DNA of 64,000 bases, taken from contig JAIQEU010000014.1 of the NCBI GenBank assembly GCA_020073665.1, forward strand, positions 62,001-126,000. Reading direction: 5' to 3'. A program made the translations under genes and the position numbers. The stretch comes from Terriglobia bacterium. Lineage in GTDB: Bacteria; Acidobacteriota; Terriglobia; Terriglobales; Acidobacteriaceae. Shown piece after piece: positions 56,051 to 62,738 of the stretch (position 1 is the first letter of the stretch; the number at the start of each line of letters is the position of its first letter). The notes beneath the pieces are model-generated. The model made no database searches and had not been told where the DNA came from. It was given only the letters and a program-made list of their open reading frames with translations.

Positions 56051-56495
56051 GCGACCCGGCGAGATACAGGGACTACTGTGGGAGAACTACCGGGACGGAA
56101 AGCCCCTGGCGCTCGGCAGCGTACTCAACCGCGTCATCTTCCCAGCACTGAATCGCTGCGAGGCGTGCGGAAAAACAGAGTCTGATCACGTGACTGCAGA
56201 CCACCCGTACAAGCGTGACGATCGCATCCCAGAGTGGCACGGATGGCACGCGGCGCGACGGGGTCTAGGAAGCAATCTGTACCGATTGGGTGTGCCGGAC
56301 ATGGTGATCCAGCGAATCCTGAGGCACGCCAACGTTAGCACGACAGCAACGTATTACATCAAGACGGCCACAGATGATGTTCGGAATGCGATGACCAAAC
56401 TGGAGAGCCATATCGCGGACACTCCCCAGAGCCAAAATCGTTTCGGGGCTGCGGGAGCGAACCCTCGAACACTGGAAGGGTCCTCCATCCAATAG
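56049..56495 (+). pseudogene. Tyrosine recombinase (phage-type integrase) remnant
   Basis: The open frame (closed upstream at 56019) encodes RPGEIQGLLWENYRDGKPLA with catalytic Arg I, then CEACGKTESDH. Next come HGWHAARRGL with the H-x-x-R pair, ILRHANVSTT with the second His, and TYYIKT with the nucleophile Tyr. The N-terminal core-binding domain is missing, and the stretch between Arg I and H-x-x-R is too short for a working catalytic domain, so an internal deletion is likely. A GTG at 56190 could start a 101-residue piece. It is the clearest sign of past mobility here. Confidence 0.75.
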
Positions 56496-56878: not shown

Positions 56879-58102
56879 CTACACCGAGCGCACCGATGTC
56901 GAATCCACCGTCCGCACCTGGGCCCCCGCCTTGCAACAAGCTCCCGGCGGTATCGGCGACCCATGCGGACAAGTCCGCGGATGCCCCAAAAACGTACAAA
57001 TCTTCTCCGTCGCCTCATGCGACAAAATATGCTCGAACTTGCAAGCCTGCTGTTCAATCTCTGATTCGCTGTCCAGGGCCAGGCTGTCGGTAAACAGCCG
57101 CTCGGCCAGCCGGTGCCGTCGGATAATATCTGCCGCGCGCTGCCGCCCGCGCTCCGTAAGCTCCACAATCATGCTCCCGTCGCCAACCGACACCCCCGCG
57201 GGCTTCAAAGCATCATGACAGGGATTCACAAACGGCTTGTGATCATGCGCCTCCGGAGGATGCGGCGTCGCCGTGACCAACTCCAACGCCACCATCTTTT
57301 CCACGGCAATACTCACTGGCAGCGCGCCATGCACTTCCATGCGCCCAATCTCTGCCAGCTCGCCATGCTCCTCCAGCGCCCACAACTCTTCCAGCACTTC
57401 GTCGAACTGCTCCTCATCGGCCATGGAGAAAACTTCCTGCGCCGCAATCTTGCCGTGATGCAACTCAATCCGCCGGTCCGCCAGCCGCGCCACCACCGGA
57501 TCGTGGGTTACCATGACGATGGTCCGCCCCTGCTGGTGCAGTTCGCGTAACAGCCGCAACACAATTTCTTCGTTCTGCGCATCCAGGTTACCCGTAGGCT
57601 CATCTGCCAGCACGATCCGAGGATCATTGATCAGCGCCCGCGCAATGCATACTCGCTGCTGTTCGCCGCCCGAAAGCTGAGAAGGAATGTGATGCGCCCG
57701 CGTCTTCAGCCCCACCCGCTCCAACGCATCCAGCGCTTCGTTCTGGTCCGTCATACTATGGAAATACTGCGCCAGCATGACGTTCTCCACCGCCGTGAGG
57801 TAAGGAATCAGATGAAACTGCTGGAACACAAACCCGATCTTCTCCGCTCGCACCCGGTTCAAGTCCGTGGCCGAGAGCTTGGCAACATTCTCATTGTCCA
57901 GCCAGATCTCGCCCTCATCCGGACGATCCAGACACCCAATCAGATTCACCAGCGTAGATTTCCCCGAGCCCGAAGGGCCCATGATTGCCACCCACTCGCC
58001 GGGATCCACGGTGAGGGTGAAATTATCGAGAGCGCGGATGACGCCGCCATTGTGTTCGGCCCGGGCCGGATACAGCCGGCTGACATTCTTCAGCTTGATC
58101 AT
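56879..58102 (-). CDS. ABC transporter ATPase fused to a DtxR-like metal-sensor module
   Basis: This 407-residue protein has two parts. Residues 1-222 are a LolD/MacB-type ATPase: Walker A GPSGSGKST (42-50), signature LSGGEQQR (143-150), Walker B IVLADEPT (163-170), switch H200. Residues about 229-390 resemble a DtxR/MntR-type iron regulator. A winged-helix-like part (FDEVLEELWALEEHGE to MVALELV) and a His-rich loop (281-296) lead to ELTERGRQRAADIIRRHRLA. DtxR metal ligands are matched by H330, E334, C354, E357 and H358 (RRHRLAERL, CKFEH), followed by CPHGSPIPPG. It is the last gene of the FTR1 operon. Metal-gated ATP hydrolysis or DNA binding by this subunit is inference. Confidence 0.9.
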   Translation of the reverse strand: MIKLKNVSRLYPARAEHNGGVIRALDNFTLTVDPGEWVAIMGPSGSGKSTLVNLIGCLDRPDEGEIWLDNENVAKLSATDLNRVRAEKIGFVFQQFHLIPYLTAVENVMLAQYFHSMTDQNEALDALERVGLKTRAHHIPSQLSGGEQQRVCIARALINDPRIVLADEPTGNLDAQNEEIVLRLLRELHQQGRTIVMVTHDPVVARLADRRIELHHGKIAAQEVFSMADEEQFDEVLEELWALEEHGELAEIGRMEVHGALPVSIAVEKMVALELVTATPHPPEAHDHKPFVNPCHDALKPAGVSVGDGSMIVELTERGRQRAADIIRRHRLAERLFTDSLALDSESEIEQQACKFEHILSHEATEKICTFLGHPRTCPHGSPIPPGACCKAGAQVRTVDSTSVRSV

Positions 58103-58103
58103 C

Positions 58104-59267
58104 TCACTCCCCTCGCAGAATCATAGCGGGTTGCACCCGCCGCAGCAGCGAAATCGGCAATACCGACGAGAGCAGCGCCACTGCCACGCTCCCCACCAGA
58201 ACGATCGGCAGTACCCCGAAGCGCGGCACTACCGGCGCATGAAAGTTCGCCCGCCCAATCCACGCCGCCACTCCGATGCCAACTCCAAAACCGATGACCG
58301 CTCCTACCGCGCCCAGCGCCGCCGCCTCCGCCGCAAAGAATCCGTTGAGCAGCCGTTCCGACGCCCCCAGCGCTTTCATGATGGCAAAATCGCGCCGCCG
58401 GTCAAACACCCAGCCGACCAGCGTGGACAGAACACATAACGCAGCGGTCAGAATGATTAGTGTCGCCGCCGCCAGCAGCGTCGACCGCGTCTTGCCCAGC
58501 ACGCGCGCCTCGCCTTCCACAATCTGCCGTATCGGACGCACCTCAGCTGTTGGAAGGGCCTGCCCCAGCTTGTGAATCATGGCATCAACTTCGTCCGCCG
58601 AACCCGAAACCGCGATCTCGATGGTGGACGCGGGCACTCCCGCCCAAGCTTCGAAATCCTTCGCCGACAGATACACGCGGCTATCTTCAGCCGCTCCGGT
58701 CTGCAAAGTTCCGGCCGGATTCACGTGAACCGCACGTCCCTGAAAACTCAACTCAAAGGGCTTGCCCTGGGGACTGACCACGGTCGCTGCCCGGATTCCG
58801 ATCAGCGCCTCCTGCGGTTGGCTCGGCCACGCGCTCACCGACCACCAGCGATCCAGTTGTCGCACCTGCTCCAGATCAGTTCCTGCGACCACCACCGACT
58901 GGCCATCGCCAGTGCGAGCCACCACGTAGGCAAAGGGAACCGCCAAGCCTCGCCCCGCCAGTGTCGTTTCGACCTTACCCAGCGAATCCGCAGGCAGCGT
59001 CTGCCCCTCCTTGGCCACGACCACCACGTTAGCTCCGTAGTTGCGGAACTCCTTGCCCAGCTTGGCCTGCACGTCGACGTACAGATTCAGCATGGCCGTC
59101 GCCACCGCCGCCGCTACCACCATGGCCAGTAGAGCCGAGACTGCACGTCCGCGCCGCAACACCGCCGCCCGAACCAGCATGCGTACGAACATGGAAGTAT
59201 GCGGCGCCGCCGCTCGACGCCGCGCCAGATCTTCACCGCCCGGAGGCTGCATCGGAAGAAAGCTCAT
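58104..59267 (-). CDS. FtsX-like ABC permease of the iron-uptake operon
   Basis: This 387-residue permease has one N-terminal span (ALLAMVVAAAVATAMLNLYV), a periplasmic MacB-type domain (about 65-255), and three C-terminal spans near 265-380. The signature DRRRDFAIMKALGASERLLN occurs at the coupling segment. The start overlaps the upstream permease stop by 4 bases, and the ATPase gene begins one base after its stop. With its sibling it forms the membrane part of an ABC machine next to FTR1, like the permease pair in P19/FTR1 iron-uptake loci. Confidence 0.9.
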   Translation of the reverse strand: MSFLPMQPPGGEDLARRRAAAPHTSMFVRMLVRAAVLRRGRAVSALLAMVVAAAVATAMLNLYVDVQAKLGKEFRNYGANVVVVAKEGQTLPADSLGKVETTLAGRGLAVPFAYVVARTGDGQSVVVAGTDLEQVRQLDRWWSVSAWPSQPQEALIGIRAATVVSPQGKPFELSFQGRAVHVNPAGTLQTGAAEDSRVYLSAKDFEAWAGVPASTIEIAVSGSADEVDAMIHKLGQALPTAEVRPIRQIVEGEARVLGKTRSTLLAAATLIILTAALCVLSTLVGWVFDRRRDFAIMKALGASERLLNGFFAAEAAALGAVGAVIGFGVGIGVAAWIGRANFHAPVVPRFGVLPIVLVGSVAVALLSSVLPISLLRRVQPAMILRGE

Positions 59268-60511
59268 GCTTCACCCCGCAGCGCATACACCGGGTCAAAC
59301 TTCACTGCCCGCCGAATGGCGGCGGCACTACCCGTAAAGGTCACCACCACTGCGACCGCTAGGATGATAGGGAACAGCACGGGTTCGATAGTGATCTGGG
59401 AGTCGAAAATAGACCGCCCGATCTGCCGCGCCAGCAGGGCTCCCGCGGCAAATCCCGCGACCCCGCTCATCAAGGCCAGCAGCGTGGCCTCGGTGAAAAA
59501 CACCGCCGCGATGGAGGCGTTCCCCGCCCCCAGTGCCTTCATCAGGCCAACTTCGCCCCTCCGCTCAAAGATCGCCGTCGCCATGGCGGCCGACACTGCC
59601 AGCGCCGAAGCAAACAGCGCCGCCAGCGTCACCAGCAGCATCAACCCCTGGATGCGCGCCAGCACCGTACCCTCGTTCTGCGCCACCTGGCGAAGCTGCT
59701 CCGCATGCGAGTGCGGAATCGCTTCCTGCAGTTGGTATGCGATCGACTGCACATACGGCGAGCAGTACCAGCGCTCGTACGTCTCCGGCGTCATGGTCTT
59801 GGGATCCCGCCGCGCCAGCGCGTCCTCGGGTTTTGTAAGCGCACTCACGTAGATGCGGCGCACCGCGCCCGGCTTGCCCAGAATCTGCTGCGCCACTGCA
59901 ATCGGCGCCATGATCTGATCATCTTCGGCGCCACCGGTCGAAAGAATGCCGGAAATAGCATGCGGCTGGCCCGCGATATCGAGGTGGTCTCCCGCCCTGC
60001 GCCCCAGCTTGGAGGCCAAACGCTCCCCCAGCAGCACCTCCTGAGAATTGTCGTCAGGCCACGCCCCCGCCACCTTCCACCAGGGATGCGTAATCCGCAC
60101 CCCGGTGACAAAGTCTTCCTTGCCGAACTTCAGCTGCTTGGAGAAATAGGTTCCCAGCACCGTCAGGTTCTGATCACTCAGCTTCACCGGCAGCATGGGC
60201 GAGAATCCCACGATGTTGTGATGCCAGAAGGTGCCGCGAATCCTGGGCAGATCGGCCTCGTTCAGATACGCGCCGTCGCTCGGAGGCCGCAGGTCCACCC
60301 CGCCAATTTCCAGGTTTAAGGTGTCTTCTTGCGGAGTTACTACCAGGTTCGCACCGTAGCTGCGCAGTTCACGGTTAATCTTGTCCCCGATGTCGGTCGC
60401 CACCGCAATCATCGCCGTGGCCACGCCCACGCCCAGGGTGATGGCCACTCCCGCAAGCAGTTTGCGCCGCTTCTGCCGCCGGAACGATTCGTAAACGAGC
60501 CGGACGAACAT
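59264..60511 (-). CDS. FtsX-like ABC permease of the iron-uptake operon
   Basis: This 415-residue permease is a homologue of the next gene. An N-terminal span (LAGVAITLGVGVATAMIAVA), a periplasmic domain (about 45-290), and three C-terminal spans near 290-410 are visible, with ERRGEVGLMKALGAGNASIA as the coupling motif. It begins 4 bases after the FTR1 gene ends. The larger periplasmic domain than in its sibling suggests a paired heterodimer. Confidence 0.9.
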   Translation of the reverse strand: MFVRLVYESFRRQKRRKLLAGVAITLGVGVATAMIAVATDIGDKINRELRSYGANLVVTPQEDTLNLEIGGVDLRPPSDGAYLNEADLPRIRGTFWHHNIVGFSPMLPVKLSDQNLTVLGTYFSKQLKFGKEDFVTGVRITHPWWKVAGAWPDDNSQEVLLGERLASKLGRRAGDHLDIAGQPHAISGILSTGGAEDDQIMAPIAVAQQILGKPGAVRRIYVSALTKPEDALARRDPKTMTPETYERWYCSPYVQSIAYQLQEAIPHSHAEQLRQVAQNEGTVLARIQGLMLLVTLAALFASALAVSAAMATAIFERRGEVGLMKALGAGNASIAAVFFTEATLLALMSGVAGFAAGALLARQIGRSIFDSQITIEPVLFPIILAVAVVVTFTGSAAAIRRAVKFDPVYALRGEA

Positions 60512-60515
60512 AGGC

Positions 60516-61766
60516 CTAGGGCTGCTGGAAGTAGTGGGCCCCGCCCGCTACTTCCGCCTCCGTGATGATGACCGCGTCGCTGGTGACCGTGGCCTTCAAC
60601 GGAATCGGATTGCAGCCACCGGCGATGCCCACCGACTGCGGATTGATAGGAGCCGCACAGTTCTTGCAGACCACGCCATTCGGTCCCTTATAGAAACCCA
60701 CCGGCCCGCAAATCTCACAAGCGTCAAGCAGGGTGGCAATCTTGCCGTCAGGCTTCTGATAAATCCAGAAACGCACCGTGGTACCGTTTTCATTGGCGGA
60801 GAAGCGATGCAGGTCGCCGTCATACACCTGGTTCAAGGGAATGCTGACCTGGCCGTTCACAAAGGTGACCTCGGTGGCCGGGGACAACTTGCTGGCGCTC
60901 TTGGCGTAAACAAATTCTGCGGTCACCATAACGATAAACAGAAACGAACTGGCATACACCGAGGCCATCCACAGCCGCTCCCGGCGCGCCGTCCACATAA
61001 CCTTTCGGCGCTCCGCTGGGGATGCCGGCACCACCGCCGGTTCGCGCCGCTTGATCTCCAGCAGCACCATGAACGCGGCCAGCGCAAATATGGTCACGAA
61101 GAAGAAAATGTCATTGCGCACGATGGGCCCAATGATGGCCATCTCTTGCTTGGAAGAGGGAAGTACGCCGTTTTCCGAAAGTTCGTGCAGGCCGGTGATC
61201 ACCAGCTGTCCCGCCACAAAAAACAGGATCACGGTCGTGACCTTGAAGAATTTCTGCAGGTTGATTCGCACCGTGCCCTTGACGAACACCACTCCGAACA
61301 GGATGGCCACCGCCACGCCCAGCACCGTCCCGATCATGCTCAGCAATTCGGTCGAATTCAGAGACACCACCGAGAGGAACAGGACCGTCTCGACCCCCTC
61401 GCGCAGCACCAGCAGGAACACGAAAACGAACAACCCGAACCAGGCGTCCTGACCGGCCAGCAAGCCCACCTTGCCTTCGATCTCGCCCTTGAGCTTCCGC
61501 CCGGTCCGCATCATGAACACGATCATGGTGACCACGAAGAACGCCCCGGCCAGCATGATCCAGCCTTCGAAGATGTCCTGGTTCCATTGGGTACGGGACA
61601 GCAGGATGGCCACCCCGATGCTGCCGACAAACGCTGCCCCCAAGGCGGCATAGACCGACTGGCGCAGTTCGGGGCGGTTGATTTTGGCCAGGTAGGCCAG
61701 GGTGATGCCCACAATCAGGGCCGCTTCCACTCCCTCCCGCAAGGTAATAATGAACGCCTCAAGCAT
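60516..61766 (-). CDS. FTR1-family iron permease fused to a DUF2318-like Cys-rich domain
   Basis: This 416-residue protein has seven or more spans. The two FTR1/EfeU iron motifs are REGVE at residues 10-14 and 122-126, each in a membrane helix (ITLREGVEAALIVG, LLVLREGVETVLFL). After residue about 290 comes a periplasmic domain: VSIPLNQVYDGDLHRFSA, then ACEICG, CKNC and GGCNPIPL. This looks like the DUF2318 Fe-S/metal domain seen with FTR1-P19 systems. It probably imports ferric or ferrous iron with help from the ABC proteins encoded downstream. A Fur-like palindrome lies just upstream. Confidence 0.93.
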   Translation of the reverse strand: MLEAFIITLREGVEAALIVGITLAYLAKINRPELRQSVYAALGAAFVGSIGVAILLSRTQWNQDIFEGWIMLAGAFFVVTMIVFMMRTGRKLKGEIEGKVGLLAGQDAWFGLFVFVFLLVLREGVETVLFLSVVSLNSTELLSMIGTVLGVAVAILFGVVFVKGTVRINLQKFFKVTTVILFFVAGQLVITGLHELSENGVLPSSKQEMAIIGPIVRNDIFFFVTIFALAAFMVLLEIKRREPAVVPASPAERRKVMWTARRERLWMASVYASSFLFIVMVTAEFVYAKSASKLSPATEVTFVNGQVSIPLNQVYDGDLHRFSANENGTTVRFWIYQKPDGKIATLLDACEICGPVGFYKGPNGVVCKNCAAPINPQSVGIAGGCNPIPLKATVTSDAVIITEAEVAGGAHYFQQP

Positions 61767-61788
61767 GAAAATCAGGCCCCTATGATTT

Positions 61789-61809
61789 TGAAAATGAATT
61801 TCAATTTCA
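61789..61809. promoter_or_regulatory. Fur-like palindrome upstream of the FTR1 operon
   Basis: TGAAAATGAATTTCA (61789-61803) and its extension to TTTCA at 61809 form an almost perfect 21-base palindrome, AT-rich in a GC-rich setting. Its outer arms TGAAA/TTTCA match the iron-box style TGAnAAT-n-ATTnTCA. It stands 22 bases before the FTR1 start and could block the promoter when iron is plentiful. Confidence 0.6.
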
Positions 61810-61867
61810 ACTAGTTAAGGATAGCCTTCCCCCGCCGCGGGCGTCAACGCGCGAAGTCACGAATGGA

Positions 61868-62033: not shown

Positions 62034-62738
62034 CTAAAAGCTAAGAGCTAATAGCTTTTCTTTCAAAAACCTCCGCGCTTCCTCCAGCCGTGGGAATAGC
62101 ATCTCCTCCGCCTGGAACTCCGTCGAGTGCACGCAGCGCCGGCTGCCCCGCAGTTTCACCGGATGCTTCAGGTGCAGCATCTCGTGATACACGATGTACT
62201 CCACCGCATAGCTCGGCACCCGGGGATGGTCAAAAACTCGGCTGACCACGATGGCATTGTGGGCGGGATCGTAATGCCCCAGCCGGTGGCGGGCGTGGTC
62301 GCGGCTCCAGGTCATTTGCGGACGCGCCAGCAGGCCGTGAAAGAAGCGCGCATTCAGTTGGTCAAAGATGGATTCCAGATTGTAGGCGTGCCCTTGGGCT
62401 GAAGCGATGCGTTTGCGTCCCCGCACTTGCCGCACCAGGTGCGCTTTGGTCACCAGATCGTGGCTGGAGAGATACCGCCGGTAGCGCGCGGAATGCGCCC
62501 GTTCAATCGGCTTGCGGTACATCTTGGCCAGCAGGATGTGGGCCAGGGCGCGCAGCACTGGTTCGGGGGCGCCTTCCAGCAGGTCCGACAGCCGCACCCA
62601 CAGCTTTCCTTCCCGCAGCCGGATGGTGTTGTTGATGTTGGCGTAGGCAAAAAACTCTACCGCGAGATCCGGGATCGGCGTTCGCGGACGCAATTCGCGA
62701 TAGGTTTCCTGAAAAATTGGCAGCAGACGCTCTCTCAC
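62034..62738 (-). CDS. SprT-like zinc metallopeptidase
   Basis: This 234-residue protein carries the zinc motif HEMLH in VYHEMLHLKHPV near residue 185. A following HSTEFQ segment could supply the third ligand. The long helical N-terminal half and the strand IVVSRVFDHPRVPSYAVEYI are usual for SprT-like/DUF45-type proteins. No signal peptide is present, so it acts in the cytoplasm. It stands 88 bases downstream of the secreted coiled-coil genes and converges on no gene. Confidence 0.85.
   Translation of the reverse strand: MRERLLPIFQETYRELRPRTPIPDLAVEFFAYANINNTIRLREGKLWVRLSDLLEGAPEPVLRALAHILLAKMYRKPIERAHSARYRRYLSSHDLVTKAHLVRQVRGRKRIASAQGHAYNLESIFDQLNARFFHGLLARPQMTWSRDHARHRLGHYDPAHNAIVVSRVFDHPRVPSYAVEYIVYHEMLHLKHPVKLRGSRRCVHSTEFQAEEMLFPRLEEARRFLKEKLLALSF

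Follow-up and report, generated by a model that had tools for sequence, protein, structure and literature searches.

The window analysed here is a stretch of 64,000 nucleotides from a Terriglobia bacterium (contig JAIQEU010000014.1), and its subject is the gene at positions 56879-58102 of the minus strand, in which an ABC transporter ATPase of the FetD type is joined to a DtxR-like metal-sensing domain. The gene is a single open frame of 407 amino acids with no internal stop and stands last in a Fet-type operon for iron uptake. We consider it moderately probable that the C-terminal, DtxR-derived module responds to Fe(II) in the cytosol and, as feedback, regulates the ATPase of this uptake system. 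Because the DNA-reading helix of the module seems to have been lost, the module is probably a brake on iron uptake and not a gene switch. A preliminary description of the window had reported an unbroken frame with a complete ATPase followed by the dimer and metal domain of DtxR, and this architecture was borne out.

Architecture of the fused protein

The N-terminal part of the protein (residues 1-224; 57431-58102, minus strand) is the nucleotide-binding domain (NBD) of an ABC ATPase, as judged from its Pfam match, motifs and fold. In a Pfam scan of the window protein, ABC_tran (PF00005) matched residues 25-170 with an E value of 4.3e-37. The Walker A motif, Q94, LSGGEQQR, D167-E168 and H200 were invariant across 20 aligned fusions, and the window protein thus carries the motifs of the FetD/LolD/MacB type of ABC transporter ATPases. 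In the fold search, the ATPase part reached Z scores of 27.0 to MJ0796 and 26.9 to the NBD of MacB; with the full-length model, the matches listed were ABC ATPases only, one domain having filled the list. We place the ATPase in the Fet group rather than with LolD because it belongs to a Fet-like operon and because its residues 20-223 are 59% identical to the ATPase of a Fet operon on an E. coli plasmid. That ATPase is bare (231 amino acids), whereas the one in the window bears the DtxR module. LolD proper was considered as a candidate and rejected, the LolD profile scoring below the curated cut-offs (207.8 versus 307.75 bits).

A complete DtxR-fold domain (residues 226-390) is attached to the ATPase without a linker. 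It begins with an eroded winged helix (residues 226-280; 57263-57427, minus strand), delimited by profile scan, alignment and model, in which helix 1 bears E235 and E238 and helix 3 is kept. According to alignment and model, a His/Cys-rich loop with the pattern HPPxxHxHK..NPCHDALxP (residues 281-301; 57200-57262, minus strand) lies between the wing strands. The metal-binding and dimerisation domain, Fe_dep_repr_C (residues 316-385; 56948-57157, minus strand), was recognised by Pfam, alignment and fold; PF02742 matched it with an E value of 2e-26 and 92.2 bits against a cut-off of 27. Its residues of note are H330, E334, E350, C354, E357, H358, C369, C378 and H380, so that the window protein has this hallmark domain of the DtxR family together with its ligands. 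The preliminary description had let the protein end at CPHGSPIP, but the sequence continues with PPGACC and 17 further residues; in the PGACC tail (residues 386-390; 56933-56947, minus strand), G387, C389 and C390 are found in 104 of 105 distinct fusion sequences, with one gap.

With 66 natural sequences as input, the C-terminal part was modelled by itself (pLDDT 89.1, pTM 0.84), and the predicted structure has the DtxR fold: compared with DtxR (1g3t_B), it gave a Z score of 18.0 and an rmsd of 1.9 A over 133 of 138 residues at 29% identity. The full-length model was of moderate quality (pLDDT 76.5, pTM 0.61). It, too, shows no linker: the strand with which the ATPase ends (218-224) leads directly to the helix that opens the DtxR module (225-245).

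Distribution of the fusion and selective constraint

In a GTDB scan of named genomes, the best 80 of 363 candidate loci were kept, and all of them belonged to Acidobacteriota; the remaining genome searches were made within this phylum, other phyla having hardly been searched. A joined ABC_tran and Fe_dep_repr_C architecture, for which the preliminary description had proposed a search, was present in 77 of the 80 kept loci. Two of the others (L058 and L094) are truncated by a contig end, and in the third (L112) what looks like a frameshift divides the gene. The named carriers of the fusion include Candidatus Korobacter, Candidatus Sulfotelmatobacter and many metagenome-assembled genomes of Terriglobia and Acidobacteriaceae; the neighbours of the window's ATPase in the tree likewise suggest a Terriglobia-like acidobacterium as its source. 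When 297 genomes were drawn evenly from the phylum, 82 of them matched the module at E<=1e-15, mostly through proteins that are standalone as judged by frame length. A further 14 fusions of deeper branching (L118-L131), with the same operon, were confirmed from fetched loci. The comparison as a whole took in 113 fused loci, all of them acidobacterial, whose C-terminal parts amounted to 105 distinct sequences. Among plasmid records, none of the 3846 that matched covered 80% of the window protein; the module alone matched 56 records, and in the 30 of these that were listed the match lay in a DtxR-type regulator or in unannotated sequence and never spanned more than 68% of the module.

A sequencing frameshift or a misassembly that joined two genes could in principle mimic such a protein, and the preliminary description had named a frameshift as the result that would overturn its proposal. 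We found nothing in favour of this explanation. It is already refuted by the recurrence of the fusion, in 105 distinct sequences, across many assemblies made independently, and its probability is negligible. The one irregular locus is of the opposite kind: in L112 (4768-6010, plus strand), alone among the 80 named loci, the ATPase and the module lie in two overlapping frames, probably through an assembly frameshift that split the frame.

The median dN/dS was 0.070 for the ATPase, 0.068 for the winged-helix remnant, 0.105 for the His/Cys loop and 0.040 for the metal and dimer part, which is the most constrained region of the fused protein. These values come from up to 143 pairs with moderate synonymous difference among 94 sequences, the two short regions being represented by 124 and 128 pairs. 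Strong purifying selection has therefore acted along the whole fused protein.

The Fet-type operon and the added module

The fused gene is the last member of a tight run of genes on the same strand. The run begins with an FTR1 iron permease fused to an FtrD-like domain (60516-61766, minus strand; PF03239 with an E value of 4.5e-37 and PF10080 with 2.1e-28), which corresponds to FetM plus the DUF2318 part of FetA. It is followed by an FtsX/MacB-type permease in the FetB position (59264-60511, minus strand) and an FtsX-type permease in the FetC position (58104-59267, minus strand), both assigned by Pfam and gene order. Thus, two FtsX-type permeases and an FTR1/FtrD protein accompany the ATPase, as in Fet operons. 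The identical order of four genes was found in the window, in the 19 fusions of an initial set of 20 relatives (the remaining one, L034, is not a fusion) and in all 14 deeper fusions. All partner genes, counted irrespective of order, were present in 63 of the 77 fused named loci, and the other 14 had less than 4 kb of DNA before the module. FtrD (PF10080) scored above its cut-off in 52 of the 297 phylum genomes.

In g35, a genus of the window's own family, the same operon recurs in all seven genomes fetched, and its ATPase is bare, ending after the NBD at 246-263 amino acids. Since this sister genus has the same operon without the module, the module is an add-on. In a tree of the ATPase domain, the g35 group branched within the fused rows at moderate support (SH-aLRT 84), a placement in agreement with a loss of the module. 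This was a quick tree with 24 open forks, on which the label "fused" needs three changes, or four if L172 is counted as fused.

Related operons with a bare ATPase also occur in L171 and L175. The ATPase of L175 (119-964, minus strand) is not fused to the module and has a different short tail containing cysteines (CPNCG), perhaps an independent metal-binding extension. In L172 (8225-9244, plus strand), the Fet ATPase carries a shortened module in which CPHGxxIP is kept and the C..EH metal ligands are gone; on its sequence, this is a natural case of sensor loss.

Such loci bear on the idea that the module is a structural domain or serves the assembly of the membrane complex, its metal site being a relic of folding. 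That the g35 operon exists without the module, and presumably works so, agrees with this idea, as does the L172 remnant, which has kept its ATPase in the absence of the C..EH ligands. However, the metal and dimer part is the very region under the strongest constraint, and its ligands hardly vary. We regard a purely structural role as very improbable.

The metal site and the conserved cysteines

The fusion profile was aligned with IdeR, and H330, E334, E350, C354, E357 and H358 fell on positions 79, 83, 98, 102, 105 and 106, respectively. The correspondence of H330, E334, C354, E357 and H358 to H79, E83, C102, E105 and H106 of IdeR and DtxR, as given in the preliminary description, was thus confirmed; the latter five we take to be the metal ligands of DtxR. 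The position of H98 in IdeR is occupied by a glutamate (E350) in the window protein. In addition, E235 and E238 in the first helix of the domain, which had been overlooked as ligand candidates, fell on IdeR positions 10 and 13 through a separate, low-scoring stretch of alignment. MntR has Asp and Glu (D8 and E11) at the two ligand places of helix 1, and Met10 is the helix-1 ligand of DtxR, where the window module has a glutamate. A cysteine at position 102 goes with iron.

Five of these residues (E238, E334, C354, E357 and H358) were present in all 105 distinct fusions, and E235, H330 and E350 were present in 100 each. Further cysteines are conserved to the same degree, C369 in 105/105 and C378, C389 and C390 in 104/105 with one gap. 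The five cysteines C354, C369, C378, C389 and C390 were still invariant after 19 proteins of the DtxR-FeoA type, described below, had been added to the alignment (66 rows). In the loop, C295 and H296 were found in 94 of 94 sequences of the window's type, and the loop is possibly a second metal site in the wing. The His-rich loop of the preliminary description is therefore real in the window's type, but it characterises a subset only: it is missing from L017, L032, L035 and L036, which belong to the same class or order, and from the 14 deeper fusions.

The abundance of cysteines could also be explained if the module were an iron store, a relay or a maturation site, in which the cysteines and the His/Cys loop hold the iron delivered by FTR1 or form an Fe-S cluster that reports redox state. 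The strict conservation of the five cysteines, of which only C354 has a counterpart among the DtxR ligands, and of C295 and H296 in the loop agrees with this explanation, and the literature on FetABCDEF (PMC10783030) leans towards a function of the ABC part in redox chemistry. On the other hand, the classical DtxR ligands, which a store would not need, are kept equally strictly, the loop is absent from the deeper fusions, and the same five cysteines are invariant in DtxR-FeoA proteins, which have no ATPase. Taken together, these observations make a store or relay rather unlikely, and we continue to read the site as a probable sensor of Fe(II).

The DNA-reading part and the DtxR-FeoA relatives

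In the model of the C-terminal part, no helix was predicted between its residues 20 and 38 (pLDDT 89-91 over residues 21-40), where helix 2 of the helix-turn-helix would be expected. PF01325, the profile of the DNA-binding domain, had no match in the window protein at E<=10 and, of 20 fusions scanned, matched no more than three at E<=1 (best 6.8e-4), whereas six of six standalone DtxR proteins of the same phylum, used as controls, passed its cut-off of 26 with 38.5-60.9 bits. The window protein thus has neither a PF01325 match nor the intact helix-turn-helix of the DtxR family. The helix-turn-helix region scored 1.6-2.1 bits in the profile alignment with IdeR, so the deletion is supported mainly by the model. 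From these results, the DNA-reading helix of the module seems to be lost, and with it, we infer, the binding of DNA. Of the winged-helix-like part noted in the preliminary description, the model accordingly retains helices 1 and 3 together with the wing strands and lacks helix 2. As a guess, the remnant contacts the ATPase.

The nearest relatives of the module are the DtxR-FeoA proteins of Acidobacteriota. In a tree of the DtxR domain (88 columns, rooted on the standalone set), the module and the DtxR-FeoA proteins formed one group against eight rows of standalone DtxR, with support of 100/99. Six fused rows that lack the motif used for cutting (L172, L119, L124, L125, L128 and L130) were omitted from this tree, and a single clade of all fusions was neither shown nor rejected (p-AU 0.41). 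The fusions and the DtxR-FeoA proteins have the signature ACxFEH...CPHGxPIPxGxCC in common, and the window protein belongs to the FeoB-linked group both by its place in the clade and by its GxCC signature. It differs in that the ATPase takes the place of the FeoA domain, which the window protein lacks, and in that profile searches found no FeoB_C match in its genome.

None of 13 scanned DtxR-FeoA proteins reached the PF01325 cut-off. Because these relatives are eroded likewise, the erosion of the helix-turn-helix seems to be older than the fusion to the ATPase or common to both lines. In 23 of 25 fetched loci (L117, L132, L133 and L135-L156, drawn from the better-scoring standalone matches to the module), the DtxR-FeoA gene lies directly after FeoB on the same strand; of the two exceptions, L144 shows no FeoB, and in L132 a FeoB on the same strand overlaps the long frame called there. 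The module is thus found in the company of importers of Fe(II). The DtxR-FeoA protein may be a regulator of the Feo system that acts on the transporter and not on DNA. More broadly, though we would not lean on it, one branch of the DtxR family may have given up the reading of DNA and become a plug-in sensor of Fe(II) for iron importers, attached to FeoA beside FeoB in many Acidobacteriota and directly to the FetD ATPase in others.

The operator upstream of the operon

A survey of upstream regions revealed a dyad operator of the Fur type, TTGAAATTGAAATTCATTTTCAA, at 61788-61810 (minus strand); it is 23 bp long and ends 21 bp before the start codon of the FTR1 gene. Promoter-like hexamers, TTGACG-18-TATCCT, stand just upstream of it in the sequence (61818-61847, minus strand). 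The survey covered loci with an FTR1 score >300, eight loci without a start motif being omitted, and 70 regions gave 66 distinct ones. The sequence TTGAAATTGAAATTCATTTTCAA was present exactly in 34 of these 66 and with at most three mismatches in 54. By box thresholds, 55 regions had this first box, 7 had TTGCAACTNAGTTGCAA instead and 4 had neither. The helix-3 region of the fusion, which is VHGALPVSIAVEKM-like, was alike in loci with the first box and in loci with the second.

The shape of TTGAAATTGAAATTCATTTTCAA is that of two 7-1-7 dyads offset by 6. Overlapping 7-1-7 dyads are the Fur-box kind of operator. By eye, the box agrees with the 21-bp Fur consensus at 16 of 21 positions. Upstream of the operons, a 19-bp Fur consensus gave a mean score of 13.4 against 10.4 in shuffled regions (one single-base shuffle per region), while the DtxR box was not enriched (10.1 versus 10.9 shuffled). 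Of the 14 deeper fusions, 11 had no clear box within 300 bp, L128 and L126 had matches of 15/21 and 18/21, respectively, and L118 had a perfect 7-1-7 dyad. In C. jejuni, a Fur site is reported upstream of fetM (PMC10783030).

In 11 other genomes searched, the first box also occurred away from the operon in three (G006, G011 and G028), and G027 had an extra match with three mismatches within an open reading frame. The first box stands just before a fur gene in two relatives (L200 and L192; PF01475 confirmed), and G009 (L189) has a box of the second type, matched with one mismatch, in the interval that separates the 3' end of another fur paralogue from an unknown gene. The genome of the window has three Fur-family genes; neither the first box nor the Fur consensus was found before them, and one of them has a 14/17 match to the second-type box 19 bp before its start. 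PF02742 was matched in this genome by the fused protein and by no second protein. It seems that TTGAAATTGAAATTCATTTTCAA and TTGCAACTNAGTTGCAA, both boxes of the Fur type, pair with two Fur paralogues in Acidobacteriota and that the Fet operon has been switched between them (L192, L200, L189 and L178). Because the box precedes fur genes and because its type changes without a change in helix 3 of the fusion, Fur is the likelier reader of the operator, and on these sequence grounds we would assign transcription of the operon to Fur.

Proposed mechanism and the case for self-repression

In DtxR, the response to metal is a shift of the first helix and of the dimer geometry. With two ATPase subunits beneath the two permeases, two DtxR modules would lie adjacent to each other, as DtxR dimers need. 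High cytosolic Fe(II) would fill the site formed by E235/E238 and H330/E334/C354/E357/H358, and the loaded modules would pair via the DtxR dimer face. The first helix, which is continuous with the last strand of the ATPase in the model, might then pull or hold the ATPase halves out of the position in which ATP is hydrolysed, so that the ABC unit would halt and the entry of iron via FTR1 would slow. The identity of the metal, the pairing of the modules and the effect on the ATPase are what this scheme supposes, and its sign, a brake and not an accelerator, is suggested by analogy with the logic of the C2 domain of MetN and of ModC. According to PMC10783030, FetA, FetB, FetC and FetD are each required for normal iron-limited growth in C. 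jejuni; FetM is thought to be the iron carrier, and FetBCD is a putative heteromeric ABC unit that has been suggested as a source of reducing power.

Several points weigh against such a brake. The relative placing of the ATPase and the DtxR module is not reliably predicted by the full-length model. H330 is replaced by glutamine in 5 of the 105 fusions (L119, L124, L125, L128 and L130). The step from a halted ABC unit to slower iron entry rests on the C. jejuni deletion phenotypes. The winged-helix remnant is constrained like the ATPase (median dN/dS 0.068 versus 0.070), pointing to some function, possibly a contact with DNA. Furthermore, a search of the window's genome at up to three mismatches gave no second copy of the box, and the seven fetched g35 operons, which are unfused, lack both the box and the module; neither box type occurred anywhere in the three g35 genomes searched.

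The last two points can be cited in favour of self-repression. In that explanation, which the preliminary description had offered beside closure of the transporter at high iron, the protein is dual, like YtgCR of Chlamydia, and its DtxR part, in the whole protein or after cleavage, binds 61788-61810 and represses the operon at high iron. It would account for the position of the dyad, which closely follows a -10-like hexamer and ends 21 bp short of the first gene, for the absence of this unique box before the genome's own fur genes, for the joint lack of DtxR domain and operator in g35, and for the operator-like dyads in two deeper fusion loci, L126 and L118; YtgCR is a direct precedent. However, the loss in g35 may be a single event, most of the deeper fusions (11 of 14, with L128 at 15/21 only) have no clear operator, and in 3 of 11 other genomes the box also lies away from the operon, in two cases before fur. 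PF01325 mostly fails on the fusions. Because helix 2 is lost in the model, the operator is of the Fur type and not a DtxR box, and the box type changes to TTGCAACTNAGTTGCAA in 7 of 66 loci, with a G009 copy beside a fur paralogue, while the helix-3 region stays the same, we judge self-repression unlikely. Closure of the transporter at high iron, through a supposed effect on the ATPase, remains the favoured mechanism of the two.

Relation to known systems

The operon has the same kinds of genes in the same order as FetMP-FetABCDEF of C. jejuni and the plasmid-borne FetMP-Fls of E. coli: an FTR1 permease, a DUF2318/FtrD protein of the Fe-S type, two ABC permeases and an ABC ATPase. It differs from them in that FTR1 and FtrD are fused, whereas they are separate proteins in those systems. 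The Fet operons of C. jejuni and E. coli also add a P19-type iron protein and thioredoxin-like genes, whereas profile searches of the window's genome gave no P19 match.

With DtxR, IdeR and MntR, the module shares its fold, its dimer and metal domain and its ligand pattern, but it is not a free protein, lacks helix 2 in the model and has extra invariant cysteines. The statement in the preliminary description that no system of this kind had been described was too strong. In Chlamydia, YtgCR unites a DtxR repressor with the permease of an ABC-type iron transporter; cleavage releases the repressor portion, which binds DNA, according to two studies (PMC7755916 and PMC5599777). As in the window protein, a DtxR-like iron sensor forms the C terminus of one subunit of an ABC transporter for metal; the partner, however, is the permease of the Ytg importer in one case and the ATPase of an FtsX-type unit, with helix 2 missing from the modelled module, in the other. 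A second precedent is formed by the C2 domain of MetN and by ModC, in which a C-terminal dimerising domain of the ABC ATPase binds the imported substrate and stops transport (PMC10710835). The window protein likewise has a C-terminal domain of regulatory type fused to its ATPase, but the folds and substrates differ, and inhibition, which was measured in those proteins, is supposed here. The component parts are therefore known, and no report of a fusion of ATPase and DtxR was found in the open-access literature searched; as far as that literature goes, the join is new and YtgCR is the nearest published case.

Bacterial iron regulation is taught mainly as the control of transcription by Fur and DtxR. 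If the proposed mechanism is true, a DtxR module in the motor of an importer would give direct and fast feedback on iron uptake, and FetBCD, the function and substrate of which are called unclear in PMC10783030, would gain a readable output, the ATPase rate as a function of Fe(II). If the broader reading of the DtxR branch is true as well, a classical metalloregulator would have been turned into an allosteric brake of transporters, one fold controlling two unrelated iron importers post-translationally. The bare ATPase of g35 and the fusion form a natural comparison of the system with and without the module.

Neighbouring features

Directly upstream of the Fet operon lies a gene for a SprT-like metallopeptidase (62034-62738, minus strand). 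About 400 bp from the other end of the operon, a short fragment at 56190-56495 (plus strand) resembles a phage integrase (PF00589, E value 9e-8).

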